From: Demequina oxidasica
GTDB taxonomy: Bacteria > Actinomycetota > Actinomycetes > Actinomycetales > Demequinaceae
Direction: 5' to 3'
Length of the DNA: 64,000 bases
NCBI RefSeq assembly: GCF_000975115.1
Contig: NZ_BBRE01000001.1
Location: 558,001 to 622,000 of the forward strand
The stretch's first letter is position 1. The number at the start of each line of letters is the position of its first letter. A program made the position numbers and the translations under genes. A model generated the notes under the pieces. It was not told the origin of the DNA. It did no database searches and worked only from the letters and a program-made list of their open reading frames with translations. Shown piece by piece: positions 2,571 to 38,092 of this stretch.

Positions 2571-2585
2571 GTCCGCGCATGCAAA

Positions 2586-2614: not shown

Positions 2615-2639
2615 AGTGCCATTCAAACTAAGAACAGGC

Positions 2640-2807: not shown

Positions 2808-2916
2808 CGTGTGTGTCTCCTTGGGGAAGTCGCTCGCCGCGGATTCGCGGCGTCTGCCCACTATTCTACGCGGACGCGAGGGCACTCCAAAATCAGTGTG
2901 ATTCTTTGAACTCCCG

Positions 2917-3690: not shown

Positions 3691-3759
3691 GGTGCGTCTC
3701 CCTGTGGGTTGTGGTTTCGCTGGTTAATTGACAGGCGCGGGGACGCCCGATGCTGTGGA

Positions 3760-4854
3760 TTAGCTGGTCAGCCAGGCCGCGAGTCCAGCGCGGCACTGGT
3801 TGATCTCGTCGATCGCGCACCACTCCAAGTCCGCGTGCGCGAGTTCAGGGTCACCCGGACCATAGTTCACGGCGGGGATGCCGAGCGCACCGAAGCGCGC
3901 GACATCAGTCCAGCCCAACTTCGCGCGCGGCTCGGGCGCACCCGTGCTCGCCACCGCGTCCACGAAGCCCTGCGCGAGAGGTGCGTCGAGACCCGGCCGG
4001 CAGGCGTCAGCACGATCAGTCACCACGGTTTCACACTCGCCCACGCCCGATGCCGCGATGACGTCGCGTACGTGCTGCACGGCTTCGTCCGTGGTCAGGG
4101 ATGGCGCGAAGCGGTAATTCACCGTGACGGTGCACTGGTCGGGGATGACGTTGCCGGCGATGCCACCCGTCACTCCTACGGCGTTGAGGCCTTCGCGGTA
4201 CTGGAGTCCGTCGACCTCGACAGTGCGGGGCTCGTACCTGGCGAGCGCGGCGAGCACCGGCGCGGCGGCGTGGATCGCATTCTCGCCCTTCCATGAGCGC
4301 GCCGAGTGCGCGGCCTTGCCAGGCAGCACGATGTCCATGCGTAGAGTGCCGTTGCAGCCGCCCTCGATCTGCGCCTGGGTGGGCTCGCACAGCACGGCGA
4401 AGTCGCCCTTAATCAATTCCGGATGGCGGCGCGAGAGTCGGCCCAACCCGTTCTTGGTCTCCTCGACTTCCTCATGGTCATAAAAGACCCACGTAATGTC
4501 GCGGGTGGGCTCGATGAGGTCCACCGCAAGCGACAGCATGACGGCCACCCCCGCCTTCATATCCACCGATCCGCGGCCAATGATTCCGAGGCCGTCGAGC
4601 GTCGGCACCGACGGCACGTTGCCCTTAATGGGAACGGTGTCGAGATGCCCGGCGATGATCACCCGCTGGTCACGGCCCAGGGTGGTGCGGGCCACGATCG
4701 CGTCGCCGTCCCGAGTGATTTCCAGGTGATCGCACTCGGCAAGGGCGGTCGCCACGGCATCGGCGATGGCGCCCTCTCCCCCGCTCACGGAGGGGATATC
4801 GATCAGTTGCCGCGTGATTTCGTCCACGGGCGCGGTCAGGTCGAGGGAGGTCAT
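3760..4854 (-). CDS. dapE: Succinyl-diaminopimelate desuccinylase
   Basis: M20-family zinc aminoacylase, 364 residues, that removes succinate from N-succinyl-LL-2,6-diaminopimelate in the lysine and peptidoglycan precursor pathway. Metal-binding motifs are visible: [12 protein letters not shown] (His and Asp), [15 protein letters not shown] (bridging Asp) and [15 protein letters not shown] (catalytic Glu and metal Glu). The dimerisation domain follows ([17 protein letters not shown]). It is divergent from dapD with only 36 bp between start codons, so both promoters overlap. Confidence 0.93.
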
Positions 4855-14730: not shown

Positions 14731-15351
14731 CTACTCGCTCGCCTCATCAAGCCACTGCGCGCCTGCAACTCTGTCCCCTAACTCCGCAAATGACCAGCGA
14801 TCCACTACTGTGACCGCGCCATTGACGCTGTCTGCACTCCACTGGCTCTGCTGAACCGTGATTGTGCCCGCGCCGTCGGCATCGGCACATTCGACGTCGA
14901 AGACCTGCACCGTGCCCGTTCCGCCTGCCACGGTCGCTGGTTCTGCCGCTGCGAGGGTCGCGCTCACTGGCGTCAGCCCCTCTCCCCCAGGACAGCCGAT
15001 GCCGTCGTCGAGGATTGCTTGGTCGGCCGCCTGAGCGCCGGGTCCAGTAACGACGGCGAATGCCGGGCAGTTGACCCCGGCCTCACAACCACCAGCGGTC
15101 ACCACGGCCACCGTGTCCGTGTCCTCACCCTGTGCCCAGAAGTCTGCGGCAGGGATCGCGAGTGGGCCCACGGGCATCAGCGACGCTTCGGAGATCCGGT
15201 CGATCCCGGCATCGGCCGCTGCGGTGGTGTTGTCATGCTGAGTGCCGACGTCCGACGTTCCGGGCGCGGAGACGCCCCCCGCGCACCCGACCGTGAGCAA
15301 GCTCACGGCGAGTGCAACGGGGAGCATCCGCGCTGTGGTGCGAGTTAGCAA
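14731..15351 (-). CDS. Secreted lipoprotein (hypothetical)
   Basis: About 206 residues with a lipoprotein signal: hydrophobic LPVALAVSLLTVGC with lipobox LTVGC. I choose TTG 15351 because it adds the needed positive charges (LTRTTAR) and is preceded by GGAAGGACC at 9-nt spacing; ATG 15327 has no ribosome site and no basic N-region. The TTG start overlaps the upstream chitinase stop by 7 nt, implying coupling. The mature part has four cysteines (CEAGVNC, GIGC, VEC) that could form disulfides. No family is recognised. Position suggests a surface role in chitin use. Confidence 0.7.
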   Translation of the reverse strand: MLTRTTARMLPVALAVSLLTVGCAGGVSAPGTSDVGTQHDNTTAAADAGIDRISEASLMPVGPLAIPAADFWAQGEDTDTVAVVTAGGCEAGVNCPAFAVVTGPGAQAADQAILDDGIGCPGGEGLTPVSATLAAAEPATVAGGTGTVQVFDVECADADGAGTITVQQSQWSADSVNGAVTVVDRWSFAELGDRVAGAQWLDEASE

Positions 15352-17306: not shown

Positions 17307-17347
17307 GTCTCTTCCTCTTCTCTGAGTGTTGAGTACCTGATCATGCA

Positions 17348-17383
17348 TAGGTTTTTGGGGTACTGCGGGTGGAGTACTACGTA
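17348..17383 (-). promoter_or_regulatory. Shared chitinase upstream motif, copy A
   Basis: On the minus strand: TACGTA, 11 nt, GCAGTA, 6 nt, AAACCTA, ending 41 nt before the chitinase start codon. The same three blocks in the same order occur upstream of the other chitinase (20319-20357). It may contain promoter elements or the binding site of a common regulator. This is seen by eye; function is inferred. Confidence 0.5.
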
Positions 17384-17463
17384 ATTGATGGTGCATGGGG
17401 CGCTCGGAGCAGGTGCCGCCGCGAGCGCGTCCCGGACTTGGTTTTGTCCGGAAGTTGAACGAG

Positions 17464-17497
17464 GTGGCGGGACGCCGGGCATCGGCGCCCCGCCCAC
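17464..17497 (-). terminator. Terminator-like hairpin after the distal chitinase
   Basis: An imperfect but long GC-rich inverted repeat (GTGGCGGGACGCCG paired with CGGCGCCCCGCCCAC) begins about 5 bp past the stop at 17502. It should separate the two chitinase transcripts, in line with the downstream gene having its own upstream motif. Confidence 0.6.
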
Positions 17498-17501
17498 TCA
17501 A

Positions 17502-23313: not shown

Positions 23314-23422
23314 GTGCCACCTCGCCCTCCGCGCATCATCGCAACGATGTTCACAGGGTAACAACGTCGACGGCCCACAAACGCCCTGGGACGTCTCCGT
23401 TGCGCAACGGCGCTTCAGCACA

Positions 23423-23458
23423 CACGTGGGGCCCCACCAGTTGGTAGGGCCCCACGTG
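23423..23458 (-). terminator. 12-bp perfect hairpin terminator
   Basis: CACGTGGGGCCC at 23423-23434 pairs with 23447-23458, loop 12 nt, starting 12 bp after the stop of the 11.3-kb gene. No T-run. Probable terminator for the giant gene, protecting the LuxR gene from read-through. Confidence 0.75.
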
Positions 23459-23470
23459 CCTCAGGTTGTA

Positions 23471-26400
23471 CTAGTAGCGCCTACGGCGAGCGGCCATCAA
23501 CAGCATCAGCGCACCAAGCCCGGCGAGGCCAAGTGCGGCCGCGATCTGCAGGCCCGAGTCCGCTCCCGTCCCTGACAGCTCGGGGACCGAGGTCGGTACC
23601 GGAGTCGGCTCAGGGGCTGGCGTGATACTCGCTGCAGGCGTGGGGTCCGGATCCGGCGTGACGGAAGGATCCGGCGCAGGCGCCGGTGGCTCCTCCGTGG
23701 GCGGCGAGTTCTGGGGACTCGTCGCGCACTCGGGCGTGGCTGGCGGGTATTGCAAAGTCACCGTGTACTCGGGGTTGACCTTGAACAGCACCTCGACACC
23801 TTCGCGGGTCCAGGCGTAGTTGCCATCCGTCTCGACATACGAACCATCGGCCAACTGCTCCCAGCCAGGCCACTGCAGCGGCTCGGTGGCCGATGCGCCC
23901 GGCCACAGGATTTCTCCCGAAAGCGGCTGGTTCTCGATCATGTGGTTCTGCGACGGATCCGTCGGGTGCTTGAACGTAATGGTCAGCGGGGCGGCATCCT
24001 GGGTGGTGAAACCTTCCGGAAGCTGCAACGAGTAGTTGAGCCACGGGATGTCTCCCACACACTGAGCGACGATGTCTCCCGGCAGAAGCTCGCGCTCGCC
24101 CGGTGGTATCTCGAATACGAGGAAGTCGATCGACATATTCGAGAAGTCCTGCGACTGACCGGTGCGCGACTCGGGATCGGTGGTGGGCTCGGTGTCCGCT
24201 CCGAGGGTAAAGACGAGTGAACGGACGGCGCCCTTGGAGTACGGGTCCCCAGACACCGGATAGCCGTTGTCGTCCAGGACCGTCTCGTCGTCATCAGGAT
24301 CGAAGGCCGTGGAACCCTCCCGGTTTCCGGGAGCCGCGGCGAGCGTCGGCCACGTGGACGACACCGTGTACTGCAGGATGTCACCAATCGCGAAGTAGCT
24401 AGCCGGGATCTCGATGTAGTAGTCCCCGTTTGGCAGGCCAGTGAACAGGTAGCTACCGTCGGCCGCCGATGTCGCAACGCGTGGGCTACCTTCCGCATCG
24501 ATCACCGGCGAACCATCGGCGTTGTACAGGCGCAACGTCACACCCGCGTAGCGGCGAGTCTCATCGGCCTCAAGGTGGCCACTGTTGTCCTCGTCGTAAC
24601 CCAGGACACCGCCCACCTCGACGGAGTAGAACGCGAAGTCAAAGTACAGATGACTGTTAGTGTCCGGCCGCACATCGTCGTTGACAGGGTTCCCCTCGGA
24701 ACCTTCGCCGGTGGGGAAACTGCCAGCGTCGGTGGTAAACCATGCGCCGTAGATGTCAGCAAATGCTGGAGCATCCTCGCCACGGTCACGACCATCGGCG
24801 TCGTACGTCGGGTACTCGCCCGACGCACCATAGGCGCCTTCGAGCACGCCGCCGCTCGCAAAGTTCGATGCGGGGAGCTTGACACGATACTCAGTGCCAT
24901 CGATCAGCCCCGTGAACAGGTAGAGACCGTCAGCGTCAGTGGTGGTGGTCTGCACCACTGCGCCCGACGAGCGCTCGATGAGTTGCACCGACACACCCAC
25001 TACGGGAACGTCGACGCCAACGTCGTAGACGCCCACGTTGTCGCGCTCGATCCAGATCTGGTTGCCGACCGATGCCGAGTAGAAGCCGAAGTCAACCGTG
25101 AAGTCGGAGCGGTCGTCATCGATTCGGAAGGTGGCCTGCCCGTTGTCCTCTACGGTGTCGTCGTCTGTACGCGACTCCTCGCCAGTGGGCTCGTCATCAC
25201 CCCGCTCGCCCACGGTGAACTGGCTGGAACGCCAGCCAATCTGCGTGGTCGGGTTGGACGGGTCGAACGCCACAATCGCGTTGGAATCGTTGTTGTTCTC
25301 ATTGTTCGCGTCCGCAACGCTCACTGTCGTGGCATAGAAGCCAGACAGTGCGCCGGGGACGACAACCTGGGCGCCGGAGACGCCGGTATCGACTTGATTA
25401 GCCGGGATGAAGACTGAATACGATCCCGCAGCAAGGTTGGTAAACACGTAACCGCCGTCCTCGTCGGTGACGGTCTCTGCAATCACGGCGCCTGTGTCAT
25501 CGAGCAACTGAACCAGCACGCCCTCGATTCCGTCCTCGCCTGCCTCGGCGATTCCGTTGTTGTTCCAGTCCTTCCAGACCAGGTTGCCGATGCGGTACAG
25601 CGGCACATTCATGAAGCCAAAGTCCACCGACAGGTAGGAGTTGGCGTCAGGCACGCGTCCGGTCACAGCATCCGCAGCGACCTCCGCGGTGCCATCCTCG
25701 ACGCCGATCACGTCCGCCTCGTCGAGTAGTGCCTCGCCTGTGGCGGGCTTCAGCGCCTTGGATACCGACAGGTAGGAGCCAAGCGTGGCGCCGTCGTTGT
25801 CGTTGTCGACGCTCAGCGGCGCAGCACCGGGGCTACGGGGATCCGAAGGCTTGACGGGGTTGCCGTCATAATCGGGAACTTCCTCGATCGCCACAAAGTA
25901 TGTGTCGCCGTCCTCGAGGTTGCTGAAGTAATAGGTGCCCTCGGCGCCCGTGGTAGTGAAGGCCACGAAGGTGTCCTCCGCCGTGCTGAACACGTCGTCC
26001 GCGTCAGCGTCGCGCCACAATTCCACACGTAATCCAACGATTCCGGCTTCGTCAGCGTCGAAGAGGCCGTTGTTCTCGTGGTCGCCAGCGCCCTCGTCGA
26101 GCCAGACGACGTTACCGATGCGCAGACCCGTGGTGAAGCCCAGGTCGACCGAGAGATTGGACCTGTCATCGCGAATGTCGGTCCCAGGCTCGTCGCCCTC
26201 ATCCTCATCTACTGGCTCGTTGTGGTCCGCGGGACCCGCTGCGCCACCGAGCGTGACGACGCCGGTAGCAAAGCCTCCGAGACCCGCATTCGCCACCGCG
26301 TTGTTGTCGGAGTCGACATCGTCGTTGGGGCTAGCCACGCTTGCCCCACCCGGACGAATATCCGCGGGAAGCTCCCCGCTCGCGACAAACACGCGGTAGT

Positions 26401-29400
26401 CGCCCGCGACAAGATCCGCAAAGCGATACTCGCCATCCGAGTCGGTCACCGCCGTGATGGGGCCGGAGCTATCGCTCACCGCTGCGCCCGATCCGTCACG
26501 GAGTTCGACGGTGATGCCGGCGATGCCGGACTCATCAGCCGAGTCGAACACACCGTTGTCGTTGTCGTCCCACCAGACGCGGTTTCCGAGTTCGTAGGTC
26601 GGCACCGGCGAGAAGCCAACATCCGCGAGTAGGAAGGAGTTGTTATCAGCGATGTCGATGCCCGATGCATCGGCGGAGTCAGCGAGGGCTTCCTCGCCTG
26701 CCGCCTCCGCAGTCGCCATACCGCCCGCAGACATGGTCACGCTGGTCGCTACTGCTGCATACGACAGCACGCCATATGTGCCCTCAGCCGCCGTATCGCG
26801 GTTATCGACAGTGCCCGATGAGAATGTGGGCGTCGAGTTGCGCGTAGCCGTCGGCGCGTTGGCCACCACCACGATGTACGTCACGTCGTCACGCAAACTC
26901 GTGAAGTAGTAGTCACCGATCGCGTTCGTGACCGTCGACGTGACGAGCGGGTCGCTGGCGTCGAGCCCATTGGCCGTGACGTCCTGGAAGAGCTGCACCG
27001 TCACGTTGGCAATGCCTGCCTCGTCGCCGTTCAGCTTACCGTCATCCTCTAGCGAGGCGTCGATTTCGCCGTCATCGATGCCGTTGTCAAGGAACACCTT
27101 GGAACCCAGGCGGAGCGCCGGGTAGAAGGCGAAGTCCACCGTCAGATCTGATCGACCATCGGCATACGTTGCGCCTGCGGCGTCAGCTGCGGACTCGGCC
27201 GAACCCAGCGTCTGGTCAGCGGCGTTGGTATCCGTTTCACCCTCAGGCTCGGCGGAAGCATATTCATCGCTTGAACTACCGAGCGTGAAGACACCGCTGC
27301 GTACTGCTGCTCCTGCTACCGGGCCTCCGGTCTCGACACCGACGTTCAGGTTGTCGTCGTCCAAAGTGGCGTCAGGATCGGCGATCACCGTGGTCGACGC
27401 AAAATAGTCGTCAAGCACGTCGTTGGTACCGACTCCGAAGGTCGCGTCGGGGATCACTACGTAGTAGTCACCCGCAACAAGACCATCAAAGTAGTAGTGC
27501 CCCGTGGCGCTTGTCGTGGTGAATTTCACAAACCCATCCGTGGCGGAGTAAAGCTCTACTCGTACGCCCGCGATCCCTAGTTCGCTGAGGTCAAGGGCGC
27601 CGTTGTTGTTGGCGTCCACATAGACCATGTTGCCTACGCGATAGACCGTCGCGTCCACGAAACCGAAGTCCACTGTGAGGTCAGACAAGGCGTCCGCGAC
27701 ATCGAAGGATCCCAGCGCGTTCGCATCGGACTCGTCGAAGCTATCCACTCCCTGGCCCTCGCCGTCGGAGGCAAGTGCGGCATCGGCAGTCAAGGACAGC
27801 GTGAACTTCGCGCTCACCGCGATGAATCCCGTCGCCACAGCACCATCGTTGACGCCGTCCGACTTGGCGGTTGAGACCTGCACGGGCGTGACCTTGCGGC
27901 CGTCGACCTCGGAACCGCTGGGCTGCGAGCTAGGCACTGCCACCGAGTAGGCACCCGGGGCGACGCCCTCGAATAGGTAATGTCCGTTCGCGTCAGTCGT
28001 GGTGGTCTGCGCCACGTCACCGAGGCCATCCAGCAGCTGAACTCTCACACCTGCCAGTACCGGCTCGTCGTCATTCATGACGCCGTTCTCCGCAAGCGAG
28101 GGATCACCGTTGCCGTTGTCGAGCCACAGTGTGGAACCCACGCGCATGAGCGGCGAGAAGCCAAAGTCGACTGAGAAGTTGGAATGCGCGTCTGAGCCAT
28201 TGGCCCAGTCCCCATCTGACTCCTCGTCGGCTCCCTCAAGTACCGTCGTTTCGTCGGTGGGCTCGCTCGCTCCAGCGCGCACGGCACCACCCAGGGCAAT
28301 CTCGGCACTCAACACGGTCGCATTGGTGGCGATTCCATTGTCGTCGTTGTCGCCGTCCTGCACGTCCGTGCTGTAGACGTCCACCGAGGATGAGCGCAGG
28401 TTGGCCAGAGCGTCCGCATCGAACAGGTCACCCTCTGCCGTCGTGATCCACCCGTCGGTATCTGCCGCGTCAAATGACGCCTGCTGATCCAGGTTGATGT
28501 AGACGCGGTAGCCACCAGCGACGAGGTTCTCGAATGAGTAGTAGCCATCTGCATCGGTCACCGTAGCGTCGATCGTCGACCCGAGCGTATTGCGTAGCTC
28601 AACGACAACGCCCGCGATGCCCGCCTCCTCGGCGGTGAACTTGCCATCGTCATCGCGGTCGTACCAAACCTTGTTGCCAATTCGGTAGACGGGCACCTCA
28701 ACAAGACCCAGATCTACGGTGAGGTTCGAGTTGTTGTCGGCGAATTCGTGCGACGATCCGGCATTGGCGAGCTCCTCGGCCAAGTCCGCCTTGTCATCAT
28801 CCTGCTCCCCAGTGGGCTGAGCGCCCACCGCGAGTGTGACGAGGTTGCTTACTGCGACGTATTCGGTGGCCGAGGTGCCGTGATCGCCGTTGTCAGTCAG
28901 ATCGGTGCCAGTGGAGGATAGCGCGGGACCTGACCACGATGCGTTGGCTCCACCGGACGGAATCACCACAAAGTACTTGGCTGCGCGGAGGTGTTCGAAC
29001 AGGTAGTTTCCCGTCGCATCAGTCTGCACGGCGCCGATGCTGGCACCGGACTGATCAATGGTCACCTGAGCATCGGAGGATGCATCGAACACGCCGTCGC
29101 CGTTGTCTGCGAAAAGCTGAACGGTGAGGCCGGACAGCGGCACTTCGCCAGCTGCGGAGTCGAAATCAGCGTCATCGTCGGTGGAGGCCACCGCCGTGGC
29201 GTTGCCGTCCTGGTCGCGGAACACGAGGTTGCCCAGGCGGAGTCCGTAATAGAAACCAAAGTCGACCGACAAGTTAGAGCGGTCGTCGCGCAGGACTCCG
29301 TCCTCGTCGAGCGTCGCGACGCCGTCTCGCAGGGTCTCACCTGTGAGCTCGGAGTGGTCGTCGTCACCGTCTCCCACCACAATCGCGCCGGAGGTCCAAC

Positions 29401-32400
29401 CGGCCGGGCTAGTCAATACCGAGCCGTTGTTGTCGTTATCGACACTGGGCTCGCCGGCAGTAGCATCGTCCGTTGTCACGGCACCCCCGAGGACGGCTGC
29501 GTTCGCGCCTGCCTTAGAGATCACCGCCCGGTAGGTCCCAGCGGGAAGGTTATCGAACACATAGTGGCCGTCCTGGTCCGTCACCACTGCGGTGACGGCA
29601 TCGCCATCGAGGTCGACAACCGCAGCACCCGAGAGCGTCTGCAATTGAACAGTGACGCCGGGGATCCCCGGCTCACCCGAGTCGGCGGCGCCATCATTGT
29701 TGAAGTCTGACCACACCAGGTTTCCAATGCGGTAGCCGGGCACCGGCGAGAAACCAAAGTCGACCTCAAGCTGCGAGTTGTAGTCCAACTTAGCGACTCC
29801 AGTGACAGCCGTGGCGAGAGCCTCAGAGTCACCAGCGCCAAAGTCACCGGCTTCGTCCGTGGGTTCGGTGCCGTAGTTCAGCACGATCGGGCCAGAGACG
29901 GAGTAACCGCTGCTCAAGGCACCGTCATTGTCGTCATCGTCGGTCTCGGCAGTCGCCGCTCGCGTAGCGGTCGACGGGCGTAGCCCATCGAGTCCGTCCT
30001 GATCCATGTCAACCCGAACAAAGTACTGCCCGGCGTCCAGCCCGTCGAACACGTAGGTGCCGTCCTCGTTGGAGGTCACGGTCCCGACCTCACCCGTCGA
30101 GTCGTCTCCTGCAGGCTCAAACACGCCGTCGCCATCCACGTCACGCCACAGGTTGACGTCAACGTCGTCGATACCGAACTCGCCGTCTTCGGCCAACCCG
30201 TTGTCCTCGTTGGCCCAGTCAAACGTTGAGGAGTCAACGCGACCGTTGTCGAGCCAGACCAGCGAACCTAAGCGAAGCGGCTGATAGAAGCCCAGGTCGA
30301 TGCTCAGATTGGAGCGCGCGTCGCCATGCGCCCAACTATCGGAATCCGTCTCGTCTGTGGGCTCAGAGGCGTCGAAAATGTCATCGTCCGCACCCAGTGT
30401 GAACGTGTTGGTGACCGTCTTCGCGCCCGCGGCGGCCTGGAGGCCGTTTGCATTGTTGTCACCGTCAGAGTCCGCGTCCGACTCGAAGCCCGCGCCGGTG
30501 GAGGCGCGCAGCCCCTCGAGCACAGCCGCATCATCGAACTGACTCGCCGGGATCTCGACGTAGTACTCGCCCGCGTCGAGACCCTCAAAAACATAGGCGC
30601 CGTCATCGGTGGAAGTTGACGCCACGAGGGAGTCGTCGGATGCCCGGCGCAGGTCTACCGTGACGTCGTCGATGCCGTCTTCGCTGGCATCCTTGACACC
30701 GTCATTGTCGAGGTCTTCCCACACCAGGTTGCCCACGCGATAAGTCGGCACGGCGGTGAAGACAAAGTCAATGTTGAGATTCGCTTGCTCGTCAGAGTAC
30801 TGCGCCGCAGGGTCGCCCCAGGTGGGAACCACGAGAAGGTCGGAATCCGACGAGCCCGCGTGGCCCTCGTAACTCATGGCAAAGGACTTGGTCACGGCAG
30901 TCCAGCCATTCGCGATGTCTCGCACACCGTCATCGTTCGCGGCGTCCGAGCCAGACTCAGAGATCTCAGTGTTGGTAGCGCTCGGGTTGGTACTTGCGCC
31001 CGGAACTGAGGCGTAGCCAGCAAGAGCTGAGGGCTCCGAAGCCGAACTCTGGTCTGCAGGAACCCCCACTTTGTAGGTTCCTGGCTTGACGTTCGTGAAC
31101 CAGTAGTCGCCGTTGCTGTCGGTCTCGGTGCTGCCGATTACAGCATCCTCATCCGCCGCGTCGAGAAGTTCAACCAGGATGCCCTCGCCTGCCACGTCAT
31201 CGGCTTCGTTGTCGCCGTCCGTGTCCAGGAACAGCGTGGATCCAATGGCGAGCGGACGGGTGCCGATCTCGGCATCATCCTCGTCGTCCTCGTACTTCAC
31301 GAAGGGGTCGCGGTCGAGGTTGTTCGGGGTGGAGTCGACGTCCTGCACGTACGCCGGCGGCGTGTTGTCGCCGTCAGCGTCATTGTCGAATGCCCAAATG
31401 TGCGCCTGGTTAACCCAGGTAGTCAGGGTGGCGGGGGTGATGTCGATCAGCACAGTGAATTCGACCGACTCGCCTGACTCCAAGGTATCGATGGTGAACT
31501 GATCGGCGCCGTCGAAGGCTACTTCGCGGTCATTTGAGGCATCAGACGCGATGGTCGCGGGGTAGAGCGATCCCGTGGCTGCCGTGTCGATCGTCATCTC
31601 GGCACCGGGAAGATCCTCGACCACGATCTCGTACGCCTGATTTTCTCCCTCGTTGGTGACGGTAATCACGAACGGCACCTGGTCGGGATACGGGGCGCCA
31701 ACCACGTCATTGGGATCCGCGAGGCTCTTGCTCAATGCGAGGTCGTAGAGCGGCACGGACGCAACATCGTGGTCGTCCTCGTCCAGTACTCCGGACGTGT
31801 TGACAACAGAGGCGACCCCCGTGTTGGTGAAGTGCTTGCCAGCCGTCTCATCGTCCTCGACGGCGCCGTCGTTACCCAACGCGGAATCCGCGATCGAGTC
31901 GACGTCATAGACAAGGCCAGAAGTGGAATCACCGTTGGCGGGATTGCCGTCGGTGTCGTAGTAGCTGATCTCGCTGTTGTTGACCAACGGCGAGTCGGCG
32001 GCGGTCACCCCCGCGGCGACCTGCAAGGTGATCGAGAACGTGACGCTCTCGCTGGCAGCCAGCTCCGGAATAGTAATCGACGGAACGGCGGCAGAGCCAT
32101 TGCCCGTCACTACCCAATCAACCGTCGAGGAGCTTGTGGTGCCGCTGAAGGCGAGGCTCGTGGACTGCGCCTCGGTAAGCGGCGTGAATGAATCGGTGTC
32201 GATATAGTCCACCACACGCACCGGCTTGATGGCCTGCGAGGTCTGGTTGATCACGGTGACGTCAAACGTCACGGCGGCGTTGCCTGCGACGTATGAGCCA
32301 GTCATCGTCTTGTACTTCTTCGTCAACGCCAGGTCCACCGGCACGTACCGCACAAACCCGGTGTCGAGGGTGTGGTCGTTCTCGCCGGGATTAGTATCCG

Positions 32401-34753
32401 CCGCGGAGATGCTGATGCCCGGGAACCACCCCGAGCCGAGCACGCCGGTTCCGGAGACCGTGGCGTCGGAGTCAATAGCATTCGACTGACCCGGGTATGC
32501 GTTCGAGGCGAGCGCCACGTCCTTCTTGGTAGGCACCAGGTCAAAGAGCTTTCCGCCGCTTTGGTAGTCAGCTGACTTGCCGACCCGTACGGTGAACCCC
32601 TCGCGGAACTTGAGGCCGCCGCCGATGCTGTCCGAAGAAGACGCGTTGGCCTGCGTCGTGTCGGTGGTGAAGCGGTACGCACCGGCGCCGTCGGTAATCG
32701 CGGTGCCCACGACAGCGTTGGACGAGTTGACAAGCTGAACCGTGACGCCGGAAATCCCAGCCTCGCTCGGGTCCTGAATGCCGTTGCCGTTAAGGTCGCG
32801 CCAGACCAGATTTCCTACTTCCAGGGGTGCGGAGTCGCACAGCGCCTCGAGGTCTCCGAGTCCGTTGGCTTTGCCCCAGTACGTTTGTGGGTTGGTGGCC
32901 AGGTTCGGGTCGGCGCTCGCAGGATTGATCTTTCCAGAGTTGTTGTAGACAGCATAGGAGCCCAACTGCCCACCGTTGTCGCTCTTCTTGAGGTTGATGA
33001 CACCGTTCTCGTCGTAGCGGTTGTTGACCTGAGCCGCTGCGGCGTTGCTGGTGTAACCGCGCGGGTCGTAGGACGTGGACAATACGCCGGCCTTGAGAGG
33101 CAGGTTCACGAGTGCGCCCATGGCGCCCTCTTCCCAGCTGTCGGAGGCGTCGTCTCCGTTGAAGTACTCGGTCCCGGAGTGCGAACAGCCCGCGGCTCCC
33201 TCGATGACGAAGCCTCCGCCGCTCACCGCGCACGCCTGGAGCGTGTCGCCGAGGCCACGGGGGTACGGGTTCGAGGCTTCCAACTTGCCGTTGCCAGGAA
33301 CCTGGTCGCCATACCGGTCACGGATACCCAGGATGAGGTTCGCGCCATCGAACTCGATGTCTGAGAGCATCGGCTGGGGCTGAATCTCGCGCCCCTGGTT
33401 GTTGTTGGTCGGCGAGGTCTTGCGATCCGAGTCGGCCCACGCCTGTTCGAAGTGCCACGCGTTCCAGCGGTCGATGTCCTGGCTACGGTTGTCCCTGATG
33501 TTCACTTCGTCATTGCGGCGAATCTGCTGTTCGTTGTCGACATCCGCGTTGAGAACCATGGTCCATGCCCCTGCGCCTGAGTTTCCGGCGGGGTCAAGGG
33601 TCCACACGTAGTACCTGAGCTTGTCGTTCGCGGCGTCGTTGAACGTCTCAGACTCGCCGGAACACACGGCGCCCACGTGTAGCACTCCGCCGGGGCTCAT
33701 CCCTAAACCAAAGGGACGGACATCCGCCGCGGCGCAGCCGGCGACCGTAGTCGGAACAGCGAAGGACTTGATGTCACTTGCGACCAGCGCGGACGTCTTG
33801 GTGGTGGGCACCTGGTAGACCTTGCGGTCGTTGAGTCCCACCACGTAGAGCAGGCGGCCGTCGTGAGAAGCCTCGAGGTCACCGAGGCCACGCTTACCGA
33901 TCAGATCTGCCGTGGCAGAGTCGTTGATCCAGGTGGTGCTCGACTTGGGGTGCGGGTTCGCTCCGCCGGGACTGTTCGAGAACAAGGTGTTGAGATTGAC
34001 GAGAGTCGAGAATGTCGAACCGCTCTGGCGGTAAATGGTCGCGACGCCGTTGTCCGTCAGGAATGGAGCCTTGCGGCGCAGATACGACGAGGTGAACACG
34101 TCCCCGGTCACCGGGTCCGAAGCGATGCCGTACAGCGCGCCAGTATTGTCGCCCCTGGTCAGAGTGGTATTCGCGTTGCTGGCGTTGGCGTAGCTCTCCG
34201 CCTGGCTGTAGCTAAAGCTCAGCAGGCCCGTGTTGTTGAGGTACGACTTGTTGGCGTCGGACACCGCCCAGGGAAACACCGTGGTGCAAAGTGTGGGGTT
34301 GTTCTGGCAGTAGTCGCCAGGCTGTTCGACAGCGAAGTCGACCCCCGAGGCGGAGCTGTCGCCCGCGAGGGGCACAATCTGGACTGAGGTCTTGTTGTTG
34401 GTGCCGATGCGTGAGGATTCGTAGCCGGAGGGGACGGCCATCTCAACTCGTAGGGGGCCGGCAGCGCTACCGGTCGCGATTGTGTAGGTACCGTTAGCGG
34501 CGGTGGTCGCGGAGTACGAGGTCCCCGCGTCGTCGTACGCGTAGATCTTGACGCTGCCGACGCCCACGTCCTCGGCATCCTTGACACCATCGTGGTCATA
34601 GTCGTTGAACACCGTGCCCGTCAGTTGGGACGCAGCCGCCGATGCGGGGACTGCGACCAACGTCAACCCAAAACTAGCGAGCAACAGCACCAAGGCGCCG
34701 GCAACAACGGGACGGACCATATAGGCGCGCGACAACAGACCAGAAAAGTTCAC
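23471..34753 (-). CDS. Giant wall-anchored SdrD-B repeat protein (3760 residues)
   Basis: Start GTG 34753 follows GAGGGAGTGTT. A signal peptide (GALVLLLASFGLTLVAVPASA) is followed by an SdrD-B module (GTVFNDYDHDGVKDAEDVG), then a ~500-residue region with a beta-propeller-like look (about 130-640). DUF11-like beta domains are near 800 and 1000 (VDLALTKKYKT, YDLALSKSLADPND). About sixteen SdrD-B modules can be counted, with GNLVWxDxNNDG Ca-binding-type loops and YxFxxLxxGxY cores. From about 1340 to 3235 they form six A+B super-repeats of ~345 residues. The C-terminus has a Pro-rich linker, LSGTG (non-canonical sortase motif), a hydrophobic helix and RRRRY. The protein is very acidic. Likely a rigid cell-surface stalk or adhesin; ligand unknown. 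Confidence 0.9.
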   Translation of the reverse strand: MNFSGLLSRAYMVRPVVAGALVLLLASFGLTLVAVPASAAASQLTGTVFNDYDHDGVKDAEDVGVGSVKIYAYDDAGTSYSATTAANGTYTIATGSAAGPLRVEMAVPSGYESSRIGTNNKTSVQIVPLAGDSSASGVDFAVEQPGDYCQNNPTLCTTVFPWAVSDANKSYLNNTGLLSFSYSQAESYANASNANTTLTRGDNTGALYGIASDPVTGDVFTSSYLRRKAPFLTDNGVATIYRQSGSTFSTLVNLNTLFSNSPGGANPHPKSSTTWINDSATADLIGKRGLGDLEASHDGRLLYVVGLNDRKVYQVPTTKTSALVASDIKSFAVPTTVAGCAAADVRPFGLGMSPGGVLHVGAVCSGESETFNDAANDKLRYYVWTLDPAGNSGAGAWTMVLNADVDNEQQIRRNDEVNIRDNRSQDIDRWNAWHFEQAWADSDRKTSPTNNNQGREIQPQPMLSDIEFDGANLILGIRDRYGDQVPGNGKLEASNPYPRGLGDTLQACAVSGGGFVIEGAAGCSHSGTEYFNGDDASDSWEEGAMGALVNLPLKAGVLSTSYDPRGYTSNAAAAQVNNRYDENGVINLKKSDNGGQLGSYAVYNNSGKINPASADPNLATNPQTYWGKANGLGDLEALCDSAPLEVGNLVWRDLNGNGIQDPSEAGISGVTVQLVNSSNAVVGTAITDGAGAYRFTTDTTQANASSSDSIGGGLKFREGFTVRVGKSADYQSGGKLFDLVPTKKDVALASNAYPGQSNAIDSDATVSGTGVLGSGWFPGISISAADTNPGENDHTLDTGFVRYVPVDLALTKKYKTMTGSYVAGNAAVTFDVTVINQTSQAIKPVRVVDYIDTDSFTPLTEAQSTSLAFSGTTSSSTVDWVVTGNGSAAVPSITIPELAASESVTFSITLQVAAGVTAADSPLVNNSEISYYDTDGNPANGDSTSGLVYDVDSIADSALGNDGAVEDDETAGKHFTNTGVASVVNTSGVLDEDDHDVASVPLYDLALSKSLADPNDVVGAPYPDQVPFVITVTNEGENQAYEIVVEDLPGAEMTIDTAATGSLYPATIASDASNDREVAFDGADQFTIDTLESGESVEFTVLIDITPATLTTWVNQAHIWAFDNDADGDNTPPAYVQDVDSTPNNLDRDPFVKYEDDEDDAEIGTRPLAIGSTLFLDTDGDNEADDVAGEGILVELLDAADEDAVIGSTETDSNGDYWFTNVKPGTYKVGVPADQSSASEPSALAGYASVPGASTNPSATNTEISESGSDAANDDGVRDIANGWTAVTKSFAMSYEGHAGSSDSDLLVVPTWGDPAAQYSDEQANLNIDFVFTAVPTYRVGNLVWEDLDNDGVKDASEDGIDDVTVDLRRASDDSLVASTSTDDGAYVFEGLDAGEYYVEIPASQFDDAAVLEGLRASTGAGFESDADSDGDNNANGLQAAAGAKTVTNTFTLGADDDIFDASEPTDETDSDSWAHGDARSNLSIDLGFYQPLRLGSLVWLDNGRVDSSTFDWANEDNGLAEDGEFGIDDVDVNLWRDVDGDGVFEPAGDDSTGEVGTVTSNEDGTYVFDGLDAGQYFVRVDMDQDGLDGLRPSTATRAATAETDDDDNDGALSSGYSVSGPIVLNYGTEPTDEAGDFGAGDSEALATAVTGVAKLDYNSQLEVDFGFSPVPGYRIGNLVWSDFNNDGAADSGEPGIPGVTVQLQTLSGAAVVDLDGDAVTAVVTDQDGHYVFDNLPAGTYRAVISKAGANAAVLGGAVTTDDATAGEPSVDNDNNGSVLTSPAGWTSGAIVVGDGDDDHSELTGETLRDGVATLDEDGVLRDDRSNLSVDFGFYYGLRLGNLVFRDQDGNATAVASTDDDADFDSAAGEVPLSGLTVQLFADNGDGVFDASSDAQVTIDQSGASIGAVQTDATGNYLFEHLRAAKYFVVIPSGGANASWSGPALSSTGTDLTDNGDHGTSATEYVAVSNLVTLAVGAQPTGEQDDDKADLAEELANAGSSHEFADNNSNLTVDLGLVEVPVYRIGNKVWYDRDDDGKFTAEEAGIAGVVVELRNTLGSTIDATVTDADGYYSFENLVAGGYRVYINLDQQASFDAADTDGWITTAEGDLFDADALANLRSSSVDVYSTDVQDGDNDDNGIATNATVLSAEIALGGAVRAGASEPTDETTVLEGADEESDGDWANGSDAHSNFSVDFGFSPLMRVGSTLWLDNGNGDPSLAENGVMNDDEPVLAGVRVQLLDGLGDVAQTTTTDANGHYLFEGVAPGAYSVAVPSSQPSGSEVDGRKVTPVQVSTAKSDGVNDGAVATGFIAVSAKFTLSLTADAALASDGEGQGVDSFDESDANALGSFDVADALSDLTVDFGFVDATVYRVGNMVYVDANNNGALDLSELGIAGVRVELYSATDGFVKFTTTSATGHYYFDGLVAGDYYVVIPDATFGVGTNDVLDDYFASTTVIADPDATLDDDNLNVGVETGGPVAGAAVRSGVFTLGSSSDEYASAEPEGETDTNAADQTLGSAESAADAAGATYADGRSDLTVDFAFYPALRLGSKVFLDNGIDDGEIDASLEDDGKLNGDEAGIANVTVQLFQDVTANGLDASDPLVTSTVTNAIGDYYFTSLRDDVTYIVVVANAPTATRNSTPTFSSGTVDNRDTAAEGTYGVLSYAAVATSVTMSAGGMATAEAAGEEALADSADASGIDIADNNSFLLADVGFSPVPTYELGNRVWWDDNDNGVFDSADESGIAGITVELRDGSGAAVSDSSGPITAVTDSDGEYRFADLVAGDYRVFVASGELPADIRPGGASVASPNDDVDSDNNAVANAGLGGFATGVVTLGGAAGPADHNEPVDEDEGDEPGTDIRDDRSNLSVDLGFTTGLRIGNVVWLDEGAGDHENNGLFDADEAGIVGLRVELWRDADADDVFSTAEDTFVAFTTTGAEGTYYFSNLEDGDTYFVAIEEVPDYDGNPVKPSDPRSPGAAPLSVDNDNDGATLGSYLSVSKALKPATGEALLDEADVIGVEDGTAEVAADAVTGRVPDANSYLSVDFGFMNVPLYRIGNLVWKDWNNNGIAEAGEDGIEGVLVQLLDDTGAVIAETVTDEDGGYVFTNLAAGSYSVFIPANQVDTGVSGAQVVVPGALSGFYATTVSVADANNENNNDSNAIVAFDPSNPTTQIGWRSSQFTVGERGDDEPTGEESRTDDDTVEDNGQATFRIDDDRSDFTVDFGFYSASVGNQIWIERDNVGVYDVGVDVPVVGVSVQLIERSSGAVVQTTTTDADGLYLFTGLIDGTEYRVKLPASNFASGGVLEGAYGASGEYPTYDADGRDRGEDAPAFADIYGAWFTTDAGSFPTGEGSEGNPVNDDVRPDTNSHLYFDFAFYSVEVGGVLGYDEDNSGHLEADETRRYAGVTLRLYNADGSPVIDAEGSPRVATSAADGSYLFTGLPNGDYYIEIPASYFAIGDILQYTVSSTWPTLAAAPGNREGSTAFDPDDDETVLDDNGYPVSGDPYSKGAVRSLVFTLGADTEPTTDPESRTGQSQDFSNMSIDFLVFEIPPGERELLPGDIVAQCVGDIPWLNYSLQLPEGFTTQDAAPLTITFKHPTDPSQNHMIENQPLSGEILWPGASATEPLQWPGWEQLADGSYVETDGNYAWTREGVEVLFKVNPEYTVTLQYPPATPECATSPQNSPPTEEPPAPAPDPSVTPDPDPTPAASITPAPEPTPVPTSVPELSGTGADSGLQIAAALGLAGLGALMLLMAARRRRY
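25050..30760 (-). repeat. Six protein-level tandem super-repeats of about 1.03 kb
   Basis: Within the giant gene, codons for the A-type signature (YRxGNxVWxDxNNDG) recur near 30735, 29720, 28680, 27635, 26590 and 25590. B-type signatures (LRLGSxVWLDNG) recur in between, near 30265, 29245, 28150, 27115, 26125 and 25060. The spacing is 1.0-1.05 kb. DNA identity between units is moderate, so the array is old enough to have diverged. Confidence 0.8.
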
Positions 34754-34843
34754 AACACTCCCTCAGCATTCGTAAGAACCGAGTGAAATGTATCCGAGTA
34801 GCAGGATCAATCCCTAGTGAAAGTGTGACCTAGGCCACTTCCT

Positions 34844-35572
34844 TTACTCAATCGTTATGAGGATGTCCGTTATGTCTTGGATGGGAGTCACTTCCGTGGC
34901 GGCCGGCAGAACGATGTCTCGCGGTCCCTGGTCGGCTAGCTCCACGACCACCGGGCGAGTGCCATCGGAGTTATTGCCCTCAAAACGCACCATCACCGTA
35001 CCGTCAGCCTCGAGCCAGACACGCGTGGCGTCGCCGTACTGAAACACGTCAGCCTCGATGCCGGTGGAGTCGTCGGTGCGCAGCCACTGCACGCCATTCT
35101 GCTGGATCAGGAGCGAGTTCTCGCGTTGAGGTGCAGCCAGAGCCGTAACCACCGCGATGAGCGAGTCAAGCTCGTAGGTCGCGGGGTCCGCCGGGCGTCC
35201 CACCCAGGGCTGCGCGTCGCGGCCAAAGGCCGCCGCGGCATCGGGCAGGTCCGGGTAGTTCACCAGCACCGAGTCGCCCAACCAGGCAACCTCATCAACC
35301 CCGGCAAGGTCGCCATCGGCCTGCACGAGCGCGCGTCCCGCGCCTCCCACTAAGTCGACGTCGCCGTCCAGGGTAATGCTCTGGCCATCGGGCATCACCG
35401 CGCGCACCACAAAACTCGCGCCGCCCGCATCGTAGTTCTCAAAGAACGTGTCCGCGATGCGGTCCGCCTCGTCGTTGGTCACGGGACGCGGCCCCTCGTC
35501 CGCGGGGGAGCACGCCGCGAGTGCGAGCGCAGCCACCACGGCAAGCGCGCCGGCGCGCATCATTGACTTCAC
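34844..35572 (-). CDS. Lipoprotein, LppX/LprG-like beta-sheet type (hypothetical)
   Basis: 242 residues. Signal peptide MMRAGALAVVAALALAAC with lipobox LAAC; the mature protein begins CSPADEGPRP. The rest is alternating beta strands (ITLDGDVDLVGGAGRALVQA, EVAWLGDSVLVNYPD) reminiscent of LppX/LprG lipid- or precursor-binding lipoproteins, but I see no decisive motif. GTG 35572 overlaps the stop of the upstream beta-helix gene by 4 nt (GTGA), so the two are coupled. It lies 90 bp before the giant repeat-protein gene on the same strand. Confidence 0.7.
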   Translation of the reverse strand: MKSMMRAGALAVVAALALAACSPADEGPRPVTNDEADRIADTFFENYDAGGASFVVRAVMPDGQSITLDGDVDLVGGAGRALVQADGDLAGVDEVAWLGDSVLVNYPDLPDAAAAFGRDAQPWVGRPADPATYELDSLIAVVTALAAPQRENSLLIQQNGVQWLRTDDSTGIEADVFQYGDATRVWLEADGTVMVRFEGNNSDGTRPVVVELADQGPRDIVLPAATEVTPIQDITDILITIE

Positions 35573-36840
35573 GCGGACGGCACCGTGATGGCATCTAGAT
35601 CGGGGAACGTGGGCTCCGCGGGCAACCGAGCGGGCGCGACCGTCAGATCTCCCGGCATGGTGGTCTGCGCCGGTGGCGCATCCATGGCCCGGTAGTCCAC
35701 TCCCGCGGGGTCACGCGGATAGCGGAGGTCCACCTCTTCAAGGGTGTGTTCCTGGCCGTCACACGGCATGAGCGTCTCGATGTCCTCGGGAAGCGACGTG
35801 GTGAAGTCATTGTCCTGGAAGCAATTGCCTGCGCTAGTCGTCACGGCGGACGATGGCCCATAGATTAGATCCGTCCCGTTGTCGCGGAGCACGTTGCCCT
35901 CGATGACGTTGCCCTCGGGGTCAAACGGATTGAACCCCACCACGCCAATGCCGAACACGTCGTGTCCGGTCACGAGGTTGCGTGCGACATAGTTCGCGAT
36001 GCCGCCGCCAATCGCGATGCCCCCACCAAAGAAGCCGCGCGAGATGGGCGGGGTGTCCTCGTTGTCGTTGTCCTCAATCACGTTGCCCACGACGAAGGTC
36101 TCTCGCTGCGGGCTGAGGAGTTCCTGCGTCTGCGAGTTGGGGGTGAGACCCAGGCGGTTGCCACGGAACGTCGAGTTGACTACGTAGACCTTGCCCGACG
36201 CGTTGGTGCCGTAGTACCCGATCGCGTTGTTCTCCATGGTGACGCCGTCGATCACGGTATTGCACGGGTCGCATTGGCCCACATACAGACCGGAATCTGG
36301 GTGACCGCTGGCGTACACGTTTTCGATCACGCCGTTACGGCTTTGGAAGGCGTAGATGCCATACAGGCCGTTGTTGTAGCTAGTGACGTAGTCCACGTGG
36401 AAGCGTTCGAGGTGAGGAACCGTGCCGTCGTCATCGGTCTCCGGGGGGTCCCGGTAGTCGTCCTCAAAGTGCCCGAGCTCCCCGGTGCCGGTGAAAATGA
36501 CCCCGTTGTGGCGGTACGAGTGCACTGTCAGGTTCTCAATGCTCACGCCGTCACCGGTCACGATGAACGCCGAGCGCAGGTCGTCGCCGCCATCAAAGAT
36601 CACCTCGTTGCGGTGAAGCCCCCGCACCGTCACGTCATCGACATCCACCGAGATCTCCTCGGTGTACGTGCCAGGCGAAATCAGGATGAGGTCGCCGGGT
36701 ACCGCGTCATCAACCGCGTCTTGAACTGTGGCGTAGTCCCCCGGCACCTCGATCGTGCCAGGGTCGCGCGACGATGAGCAGGCGGACAGTCCGACTGCGC
36801 AGAGCAGTGCGCAGACGGCGGCGGCAATCGAGCGAATCAT
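35569..36840 (-). CDS. Lipoprotein with right-handed parallel beta-helix
   Basis: 423 residues. Signal peptide IAAAVCALLCAVGLSAC with lipobox LSAC. The body opens with VPGDYATVQDAVDDAVPGD and ILISPGTYTEEISV, the typical first turns of pectate-lyase/NosD-type parallel beta-helix proteins. Repeated turns follow (VTVRGLHRNEVIFDG, GVSIENLTVHSYRHNGVIF, GVIENVYASGHPDSGLYVG, GNVIEGNVLRDNG). Such folds bind or cleave polysaccharides, but no catalytic triad could be assigned. Probably the first gene of an operon with the lipoprotein at 34844 and perhaps the giant surface protein. Confidence 0.88.
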   Translation of the reverse strand: MIRSIAAAVCALLCAVGLSACSSSRDPGTIEVPGDYATVQDAVDDAVPGDLILISPGTYTEEISVDVDDVTVRGLHRNEVIFDGGDDLRSAFIVTGDGVSIENLTVHSYRHNGVIFTGTGELGHFEDDYRDPPETDDDGTVPHLERFHVDYVTSYNNGLYGIYAFQSRNGVIENVYASGHPDSGLYVGQCDPCNTVIDGVTMENNAIGYYGTNASGKVYVVNSTFRGNRLGLTPNSQTQELLSPQRETFVVGNVIEDNDNEDTPPISRGFFGGGIAIGGGIANYVARNLVTGHDVFGIGVVGFNPFDPEGNVIEGNVLRDNGTDLIYGPSSAVTTSAGNCFQDNDFTTSLPEDIETLMPCDGQEHTLEEVDLRYPRDPAGVDYRAMDAPPAQTTMPGDLTVAPARLPAEPTFPDLDAITVPSA

Positions 36841-36943: not shown

Positions 36944-38014
36944 TCACACCGGAACGGCGACCACCGGGTCGGTCACGGCGCGCTTGCGCTTGCCGCGTGG
37001 CTTCTCGCCCACCTTCACTAGCACCACGCCCGCGAGCACCAACGCAGCTCCGCCCATTTGAATCGGCATGGGCGCCTGACCCAGAAGCAGCCACGCGAAG
37101 ATGGCGGCGGCGATCACCTCGGAGAGCGCCACGAAGGAACCCAGCCGCGAGCCCAGACGACGGGTCGCAGCGATGCCCGTCACGTAGGACACGGCACCGG
37201 TAATCACTCCCAGCACCAGTAGTACTGCCCACCAGGGCGCCGCGAAGGTCACGAACTGCACGTCGCCAAAGCCCACCGTGATCGGGAGAACGCCGACGAG
37301 AGCGGCTGCGCCAAGCACCACGAGAGCCACCAACAGCCCGCCAGCGGCGAGGGTCATAGGCGGAAGGCCGTTGCTCTCGTCCCCAGAGATCACAAAGTAA
37401 ACCGCGGCGCCGACCATGGCCGCCAGCGCCCACGCCACGCCCACCAAGGAGATGCGACCGCCGCCTAGGACATCGAGCAGCAGCACCAGGCCGAATGCCG
37501 CTACGCCCGCCCCCATCACCGTCAAAGCGGAGGGGCGCGCGCCTTGGCGCACCCACAGCCACAACACCACGGCGACCGGTGCCGTGTACTCAATGAGGAG
37601 CGCGACGCTCACATCCAGGTAGCCGATGGCCAGGAAGTAGCAGAGTTGTGCGCCGGCCACGGCGAAGACGCCATAGGCGACCACGGTGCCGATGCTGCGC
37701 CTCAACAGGCCCCAGCGTCCGCGAAGGGCGAGGATACCAGGCACGATGAGCACAGCGGTGGCGATGGCCACGCGCACCAGAGTTGCCGCACCCGCGCTCC
37801 AACCCAAATCCATCAGGCCACGCGCGAGGCTGCCCGACAAGCCGAACGATGCTGCGGCGGCGAGCGCGAAGAGCAGGCCCGAACCCAGGCGCGACGGCGC
37901 CCCAGAGACCGGCGAGCCGGGCGCGCCAGCTGCCGGCAACGACGCCGCCTGGCCACTAGCGGGCGCAATGATCCGCGGTGCCTTAGTCATGCTTGATTTC
38001 GTCGCGCTTTTCAT
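36944..38014 (-). CDS. EamA/DMT-family transporter
   Basis: 356 residues with ten predicted membrane helices, organised as two EamA repeats (LLFALAAAASFGLSGSLARG begins the first, VGVAWALAAMVGAAVYFVIS the second). The C-terminus is cytoplasmic and basic (KVGEKPRGKRKRAV). EamA proteins are drug/metabolite exporters; the substrate is unknown. ATG 38014 follows GGGAGGCGACA, so the 10 codons upstream in the frame are not used. It is divergent from a CGNR zinc-finger regulator that is the likely controller. Confidence 0.88.
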   Translation of the reverse strand: MKSATKSSMTKAPRIIAPASGQAASLPAAGAPGSPVSGAPSRLGSGLLFALAAAASFGLSGSLARGLMDLGWSAGAATLVRVAIATAVLIVPGILALRGRWGLLRRSIGTVVAYGVFAVAGAQLCYFLAIGYLDVSVALLIEYTAPVAVVLWLWVRQGARPSALTVMGAGVAAFGLVLLLDVLGGGRISLVGVAWALAAMVGAAVYFVISGDESNGLPPMTLAAGGLLVALVVLGAAALVGVLPITVGFGDVQFVTFAAPWWAVLLVLGVITGAVSYVTGIAATRRLGSRLGSFVALSEVIAAAIFAWLLLGQAPMPIQMGGAALVLAGVVLVKVGEKPRGKRKRAVTDPVVAVPV

Positions 38015-38092
38015 TGTCGCCTCCCTAGATGAGTCATTAGTCAAAGTCCGTATGGCTCATTACGATAATCGCCCGAGTGGTAATGTGTCAAC
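38015..38092. promoter_or_regulatory. Shared divergent promoter with repeated TCATTA boxes
   Basis: The 78-bp gap between the EamA and CGNR genes carries TCATTA at 38034-38039 and 38057-38062, 23 bp apart, and TAATGT at 38081-38086. The last is a plausible -10 element 7 nt before ATG 38093, which would make the CGNR message leaderless. Boxes about two helical turns apart fit binding of a dimeric autoregulator. Confidence 0.45.

Follow-up and report, generated by a model that had tools for sequence, protein, structure and literature searches.

A locus of three genes on the reverse strand was identified in a 64,000-nucleotide stretch of the Demequina oxidasica genome (the window; the genome comprises 2.62 Mb in 8 contigs). 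Two of them encode lipoproteins, a beta-helix one (lipo1) and a second one (lipo2), and the third encodes a giant surface protein; the locus may represent, in Demequina, a surface system that is conserved in actinobacteria. An initial annotation, made from the letters alone, had described these genes as open reading frames (ORFs) of one strand with a 4-nucleotide overlap between lipo1 and lipo2, and all of this is confirmed; the shared nucleotides are 35569-35572 (GTGA). The lipoboxes of the lipoproteins (..LSAC and ..LAAC) and the signal peptide of the giant protein are read directly from the sequence. From the N-terminus, the giant protein consists of the signal peptide, SdrD_B module 1, a head, module 2, a DUF11 part, module 3, twelve modules in six pairs, module 16, a C-terminal domain, a proline-rich linker and an LSGTG signal (Table 1). 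The C-terminal domain, the sorting-type signal, two DUF11 stretches and a hairpin behind the giant gene are additions to the initial annotation.

Table 1. Features of the locus, in window positions and residues of the giant protein
Feature	Residues	Positions	Strand	Length	Description
Giant surface protein gene		23471..34753	(-)	3760 aa	ORF and translation
lipo2 gene		34844..35572	(-)	242 aa	Second lipoprotein
lipo1 gene		35569..36840	(-)	423 aa	Right-handed beta-helix lipoprotein, GQCDPC motif
SdrD_B module 1	43-140	34334..34627	(-)		Precedes propeller
Propeller head	152-645	32819..34300	(-)		Six-bladed YWTD-type beta-propeller by prediction
Rod	645-3549	24107..32821	(-)		SdrD_B modules 2-16, with DUF11 part between modules 2 and 3
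Six A/B super-repeats	1339-3378	24620..30739	(-)
C-terminal wall-proximal domain	3559-3683	23705..24079	(-)		No Pfam match in window protein
Sorting-type signal	3726-3760	23474..23578	(-)		LSGTG, hydrophobic stretch and RRRRY, from sequence
Terminator-like hairpin		23405..23474	(-)		Follows giant gene; stem of 17 bp, without T run
EamA transporter gene		36944-38044			Upstream of lipo1
LuxR-type regulator gene		20377-23421	(-)		Downstream of giant gene
GH18/CBM5_12 chitinase genes		17502-20201 and 15345-17501	(-)		Downstream of LuxR gene

The head is predicted with good confidence to be a six-bladed YWTD-type propeller, which gives a fold to a part that the initial annotation had called propeller-like (about residues 130-640). 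The AlphaFold2 model of residues 41-805, built with 66 aligned sequences, has a predicted local distance difference test (pLDDT) value of 85.6 and a predicted template-modelling score (pTM) of 0.91. VIA-align superimposes the head model on nidogen (1npe_A) with Z 23.0, a root-mean-square deviation of 2.8 and 258 of 263 residues aligned, on LRP6 and megalin with Z 21-22 and on TolB with Z about 20; sequence identity in the structural alignments with YWTD propellers is 10-14%. In the window protein, the head lies outside all Pfam matches, and no Pfam propeller match was found among 66 relatives of the giant protein at E 0.01. The 15 Pfam families detected in these relatives are SdrD_B (66/66) and other immunoglobulin (Ig)-like, transthyretin-like or minor families. 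Several charged head residues (R478, D479, D483, D503, E518, E529, K628 and D634) are near-invariant in 34 sequences from several phyla, a pattern that is compatible with, but no proof of, an active or metal site.

A relative is encoded in 267 stretches, of which the best 80, representing 79 loci, were kept. The relatives come from Acidobacteria, Chloroflexi (Herpetosiphon among them), Saprospiraceae, Spirosoma and related genera, Streptomyces and other groups. By our own SdrD_B profile, most of the 79 loci carry a single module in front of the head and 1-19 behind it; this profile detected no module in L169, L175 and L177, and L133 is cut off behind the head. Four Herpetosiphon genomes (L134, L135, L136 and L150) encode a relative of 3023-3047 aa with 17 SdrD_B modules and have no partner-gene match in the flanks.

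The rod is built of SdrD_B modules. The Pfam family SdrD_B (PF17210) matches the giant protein in 16 stretches (639 bits against a gathering score of 29.7, E = 5e-196), as had been estimated before, and all 16 places matched in the genome lie in the frame of the giant gene. Modules 2, 3 and 16 cover residues 645-803, 1170-1335 and 3379-3549, respectively, and the better of the two DUF11 stretches matches best at residues 1004-1130. The modules of the super-repeats start at residues 1339, 1494, 1675, 1839, 2024, 2204, 2372, 2548, 2721, 2878, 3054 and 3229, with the next module at 3379. The earlier count of six super-repeats of about 345 residues holds, with pair lengths of 325-349 residues, but the array ends at residue 3378 and not at 3235. 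The alternation of A and B types proposed for these modules is real but weak: mean identity is 34.9% within a type versus 31.6% between types, and 4 of the 924 balanced labelings are equal or better. An insertion in the first loop occurs in five of the six B modules and is absent from the sixth (3229). Judged by an identity of about 35% among themselves, the super-repeats are old; recent tandem amplification was considered and is ruled out by the same within-protein module identity.

The SdrD-B fold proposed for the repeats agrees with the Pfam profile and with the closest solved relatives by sequence, SdrD (10ps, 4jdz and 8vdk) and UafA. A Foldseek search with the predicted model of residues 41-805, which includes two SdrD_B modules, places SdrD entries (10ps, 8vdk and 4jdz) first and among its best matches, through these modules, but with TM-scores of only 0.15-0.24, so that the case for this fold is mainly one of sequence. 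The MSCRAMM SdrD model (NF012181) scores 354 bits with the giant protein, below its curated cut-off of 2500. In residues 1340-3235, the loops are acidic and the net charge is near -15 per 100 residues. Staphylococcal SdrD_B stalk domains are described in PMC6232131 as binding three calcium ions and withstanding >2 nN, and by analogy the modules of the giant protein may bind calcium.

The head and the rod have diverged at different rates. In D. aurantiaca NBRC 106265 (G036), the nearest named relative carrying the locus, the head and the preceding module 1 are each 86% identical to those of the window, and lipo1, lipo2, the C-terminal domain and the chitinases are 93%, 88%, 90% and 95% identical, respectively. 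The rod modules of D. aurantiaca, in contrast, are only 39-59% identical to their best window match, and this species has 8 SdrD_B modules in total versus 16 and two super-repeats versus six. The propeller is thus the conserved part, together with the lipoproteins and often a DyP peroxidase gene, and the long rod is a variable add-on. Heads accompanied by partner genes are followed by 1 (Streptomyces) to 15 (window) SdrD_B modules.

Lipo1 matches the Pfam family Beta_helix (E 1.3e-11). It scores 72.9 bits with the beta-helix family TIGR03805 (cut-off 141.5; two relatives score 77.6 and 83.9) and 32 bits with the NosD copper-insertion family TIGR04247 (cut-off 300), below the cut-off in both cases. 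Ten lipo1 relatives share 38-93% identity, and a C-x-P-C motif is present in lipo1 of 15 of 23 loci, including all those from Demequina and Streptomyces. Lipo2 has no convincing Pfam match, and a search of the PDB with a lipo2 profile gave no meaningful match; its sequence suggests a possible fold of the LolA/LppX/LprG type. In 14 of the 23 loci containing both genes, lipo1 and lipo2 lie on the same strand, and each of these 14 pairs shows the exact 4-nucleotide overlap, with a lipo1 stop of the form ATGA or GTGA and an overlapping start in the lipo2 frame that opens onto a signal-peptide-like stretch. The gap between lipo2 and the giant gene holds no unusual structure (z -1.2), so read-through from lipo2 into the giant gene may be possible. 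The hairpin 3' of the giant gene is strong (-42 kcal/mol, z -4.6, none of 200 shuffles as strong). Pattern scans returned 3 promoter-like sites versus 2.5 in shuffles, which is no excess, and 5 terminator-like sites versus 9.4, which is fewer than expected.

Two outcomes were named as refuting the initial annotation, three genes that are neighbours in no relative and repeats without a predicted SdrD-B fold, and neither of them was obtained. The three genes are neighbours in the same order in D. aurantiaca (L021/L129), and a lipoprotein pair near a propeller gene is also present in Streptomyces, Phytohabitans and further families. A tblastn search with lipo1 and lipo2 in the flanks (up to 10 kb) of the 79 head loci found lipo1 at 9 of the 15 actinobacterial loci, namely D. 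aurantiaca, one uncultured actinobacterium, six Streptomyces and Phytohabitans maris, and at 0 of the 64 others; lipo2 adjoins lipo1 in all nine. A DyP-type peroxidase gene lies near the set in the six Streptomyces and in Phytohabitans (by profile, and by Pfam for four). The four Streptomyces DyPs inspected have a twin-arginine-type start and the GxxDG motif of DyP peroxidases.

An even sample of 394 genomes of the actinobacterial class was searched with a head profile, which matches 37 of them at E 0.001. The match is strong in 24 (E 2e-12 or better) and weak in 13 (E 4e-5 or worse), the weak ones spanning only about 60-110 residues; the cut was chosen after the gap in E values was seen. Neighbourhoods were collected from all 23 strong-head genomes besides that of the window, three of them at two places, and each of the 26 was searched with lipo1, lipo2 and DyP queries taken from other genomes. 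Within about 10 kb of the head, lipo2 was found in 20 neighbourhoods, DyP in 19 and at least one partner in 23; in G263 and G272, lipo2 and DyP lie just beyond the first stretch fetched. When 421 ORFs, selected by a rule of length and codon composition from 39 actinobacterial loci with the window left out, were clustered, just four groups reached at least three lineage labels (mostly families, one family being split into two genera): head (13), lipo1 (7), lipo2 (7) and DyP (6).

A 26-row lipo2 profile matches 29 of the 394 genomes, comprising all 24 strong-head genomes and 5 of the 370 others (Fisher 8e-34, or 2e-24 counting all 37 head matches; both values are nominal because the genomes are related to each other). 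The profile rows come from 19 of the 24 propeller genomes, where a match is given by construction, so this co-occurrence is partly circular; its independent parts are the 26 neighbourhoods and the propeller genomes without a profile row (G202, G111, G263, G272 and G421), 5/5 of which also have lipo2. In 23 of the 24 strong-head genomes, no more than about 10 kb separates the lipo2 gene from the head. Among the five lipo2 genomes without a strong head, G255 carries both lipo2 and DyP where a contig begins, and G159, G173, G259 and G448 have lipo2 alone within the 19.5 kb fetched. Within Demequina, lipo2 is present in 3 of 44 genomes and the head in 3 of 37 examined, and these are the same three genomes. 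In one of them, Demequina sp. Soudan_13_1 (G033), the lipoprotein pair and the giant gene lie on separate contigs, a counter-example inside the genus. The idea drawn from this pair, that the lipoproteins are unrelated to the giant protein, was dropped after the wider neighbourhood and clustering results.

The genes very probably form a functional set in Actinobacteria. The gene set recurs in several actinobacterial lineages and was found without description in the open-access literature, where no paper linking DyP peroxidases to SdrD_B or propeller surface proteins was retrieved. The proposal of a coupled surface assembly, which may be co-expressed, is supported by broader evidence than had been expected, and the link between the genes extends beyond the genus. 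Since the genes differ in order and strand from one genome to another, a single operon is not the general arrangement.

The C-terminal domain, with the pattern WPGA..WPGW..WTR and two conserved cysteines, is present in 32 of 47 genomes from the family and frequently forms tandem copies. Its fold comparison gave weak fibronectin type III (FnIII)- or Ig-like matches (best Z 5.8, no Foldseek E <0.001). At loci of this domain (L070-L099), 24 of 30 proteins finish in a conserved ...YTG or ...YAG stop without a membrane anchor. A frameshift-split anchor was considered for proteins ending in TYTG and rejected, as none was seen in the three frames past the stop at 11 loci. The Demequina genome encodes one class E sortase (248 bits, cut-off 160), one class F sortase and one closest to class F but under its cut-off. 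Class E specificity is given as LAXTG in PMC5148588, whereas the giant protein has LSGTG, followed by a hydrophobic stretch and a basic tail. Sorting-type signals were found at the end of 19 of 26 sampled head proteins, and among the remaining seven, two are truncated because their stretch ends there. The four-gene set of Phytohabitans maris is adjoined by a gene for a sortase (L205:19056-20216), and its propeller protein ends in an LPVTG signal.

In the genus, the interval between the EamA gene and typA (window 12743-38044), the latter following the two chitinase genes on the downstream side, is a variable slot with differing inserts in the 34 Demequina genomes read (L021, L022 and L037-L069). 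The slot contains the lipoprotein pair, the SdrD_B giant, LuxR and chitinases in the window genome (G000) and G036, the lipoprotein pair alone in G033, and other genes in further genomes. An unrelated giant with cadherin-like repeats occupies it in G016 and G032 (L037:3687-12290(-), 2867 aa; L045:3083-10054(+), 2323 aa); by BLAST, the part these giants have in common with the window protein is the C-terminal domain, 44-52% identical. In G030 (L208 and L209), the EamA gene is apparently split over two contigs, and beyond the CGNR gene there is a giant of 1933 aa that has the C-terminal domain.

The reading we favour, though with somewhat less than even confidence, is that Demequina has here its own form of a surface system conserved in actinobacteria, and that the partner proteins act on the propeller during export. 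The composition, conservation and gene proximity of this system and the predicted fold are observed: a secreted, often wall-anchored protein in which SdrD_B modules flank a predicted six-bladed propeller, lipo1, often translationally coupled to lipo2, and commonly, from a gene close to them, a DyP-type peroxidase whose start is of the twin-arginine type. The lipoproteins, and the peroxidase where present, would act on the propeller during its export, folding or cofactor loading, ahead of its attachment to the wall. The rod, with its widely varying number of SdrD_B modules, would only set the distance at which the finished head is displayed. In this Demequina lineage, the peroxidase gene is missing from the locus and the rod has grown to 15 modules behind the head. 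The partners should work on the head and not on the rod, because they are kept with 1-15 modules and because the head is far better conserved than the rod. Contact would be most plausible during export, since a rod of 15 modules would hold the head far from the membrane and so largely out of reach of a membrane lipoprotein.

The maturation mechanism in this form is put forward tentatively, and several points weigh against it. Action of the partners on the propeller during export is argued from reach and from analogy. No partner was found at the 64 non-actinobacterial propeller loci, where the flanks searched reached 10 kb at most and less on short contigs, and a propeller can therefore occur without partners. 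Among the 26 actinobacterial neighbourhoods, only 11 have lipo1 and three have no partner (L218, L222 and L234); L218 and L222 represent the second copy of G124 and G202, each of which also has a copy with partners, and the genome of L234 (G111) has lipo1, lipo2 and DyP together about 102 kb away. Neither the 64-kb window nor the D. aurantiaca stretches searched contain a DyP gene, whole genomes not having been searched for one. Lipo1 and lipo2 are on opposite strands in 9 of the 23 loci, so their coupling is not general; the C-x-P-C motif is likewise limited to part of the lipo1 loci, and the construction of the lipo2 profile counts on the same side.

A plain fibrillar adhesin is an unlikely but serious alternative, in which a calcium-stiffened, sortase-anchored SdrD_B rod carries the propeller as its ligand-binding tip and the lipoproteins are accessory adhesion or wall factors that stay close to the propeller but do not act on it. 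The order of head, stalk and C-terminal sorting signal suits Gram-positive fibrillar adhesins as described in PMC8286594 and PMC9210967, staphylococcal SdrD_B stalks bind calcium and withstand high force, YWTD propellers occur in protein complexes (nidogen/laminin and LRP6, from structure titles), and most sampled relatives end in a sorting-type signal. The strong conservation of the head across phyla, with its near-invariant charged residues, is unexpected for a fast-evolving adhesin tip, however, six Streptomyces relatives have just 1-2 SdrD_B modules and no anchor, and the association with DyP and lipo2 is left without explanation. Of the two domain types that define a fibrillar adhesin, stalk domains are present; among the Pfam matches of the giant protein to E 1, none is a family that we recognise as adhesive, judged by our own recognition and not by full domain lists. 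Metal or haem capture is less probable still. Here the propeller would pick up the source and pass it to the lipoproteins, and DyP would alter the redox state of that source, in the manner of EfeB next to EfeO. Clusters of DyP and lipoproteins for metals are known (EfeB/EfeO for iron and DtpA/Sco/ECuC for copper; PMC4736821), lipo1 often has C-x-P-C and a weak likeness to NosD, and in Demequina sp. Soudan_13_1 the end of the giant gene abuts efeO-like and efeB-type DyP genes (L023:4677-7214 and L057). Only four families recur among the neighbours, though, and no permease is among them; C-x-P-C is not general, and two Streptomyces DyPs tested reach the cut-off of the superfamily TIGR01413 but score 186.7 and 181 bits with the EfeB equivalog (TIGR01412), below its cut-off of 428.

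A chitin-utilisation island, in which the giant protein, the LuxR regulator and the two GH18 chitinases would jointly attach to and degrade chitin, is very improbable. LuxR and the two chitinases do follow the giant gene on one strand in the window and in D. aurantiaca. The same cassette occupies the same slot without giant or lipoproteins in five other Demequina genomes (G008, G010, G015, G059 and G065), which largely refutes chitin as the main link; the window chitinases match no head locus besides D. aurantiaca, no chitinase family recurs in the ORF clustering, and the strong hairpin separates the giant gene from LuxR.

Several known systems resemble the favoured export-linked system in part. 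The MSCRAMM adhesins SdrD and SdrG share SdrD_B modules (by sequence), an N-terminal functional head and a C-terminal sorting-type signal, whereas the giant protein has a predicted propeller in place of the Ig-like A region, has no SD-repeat region and is encoded near lipoproteins and often a DyP. Fibrillar adhesins as described in PMC8286594 and PMC9210967 also have a long repeated beta-sandwich stalk between head and wall anchor, but the giant's head falls outside Pfam and the families of its relatives include no propeller. EfeUOB iron uptake likewise combines a DyP peroxidase and a lipoprotein; neither a permease nor an imelysin-type lipoprotein recurs with the present set, and the EfeB cut-off is unmet by the two DyPs tested. 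With the YWTD propellers of nidogen, LDL receptor and LRP6, the head shares the predicted fold (Z 21-23, about 250-280 residues aligned) and differs in its low identity, with no sequence relation shown, its long insertions and its bacterial SdrD_B context. GlxA of Streptomyces contains a propeller itself. According to PMC4736821, maturation of this oxidase is served by the DyP DtpA and the lipoproteins Sco and ECuC, a precedent for the proposed maturation in which a Tat (twin-arginine translocation)-exported DyP and extracytoplasmic lipoproteins serve a secreted surface-associated protein. Lipo1 and lipo2 have no Sco or ECuC match in the libraries searched (no direct comparison made), the relation of one DyP to DtpA is at family level only (131 bits), and the protein presumably served in the present set combines a six-bladed propeller with SdrD_B modules.

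The gene set supplies a gene context for one more group of DyP peroxidases, enzymes whose physiological role is called unclear in PMC4736821. Its hosts include Streptomyces, Phytohabitans and members of other actinobacterial families, among them some that are easily manipulated, and its central propeller and lipo2 are without a Pfam family. The locus is also an example of a rod that changes fast in length and sequence while the head and its partners stay, so the function of the head may be studied separately from its display distance. It is conceivable, although doubtful, that the two lipoproteins and DyP build or load an active site in the propeller, which would then be displayed on a rod of adjustable length as an undescribed wall-anchored oxidoreductase-like machine. 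If so, long-rod giants such as that of the window would be the extreme form of a wall-anchored oxidoreductase-like system.

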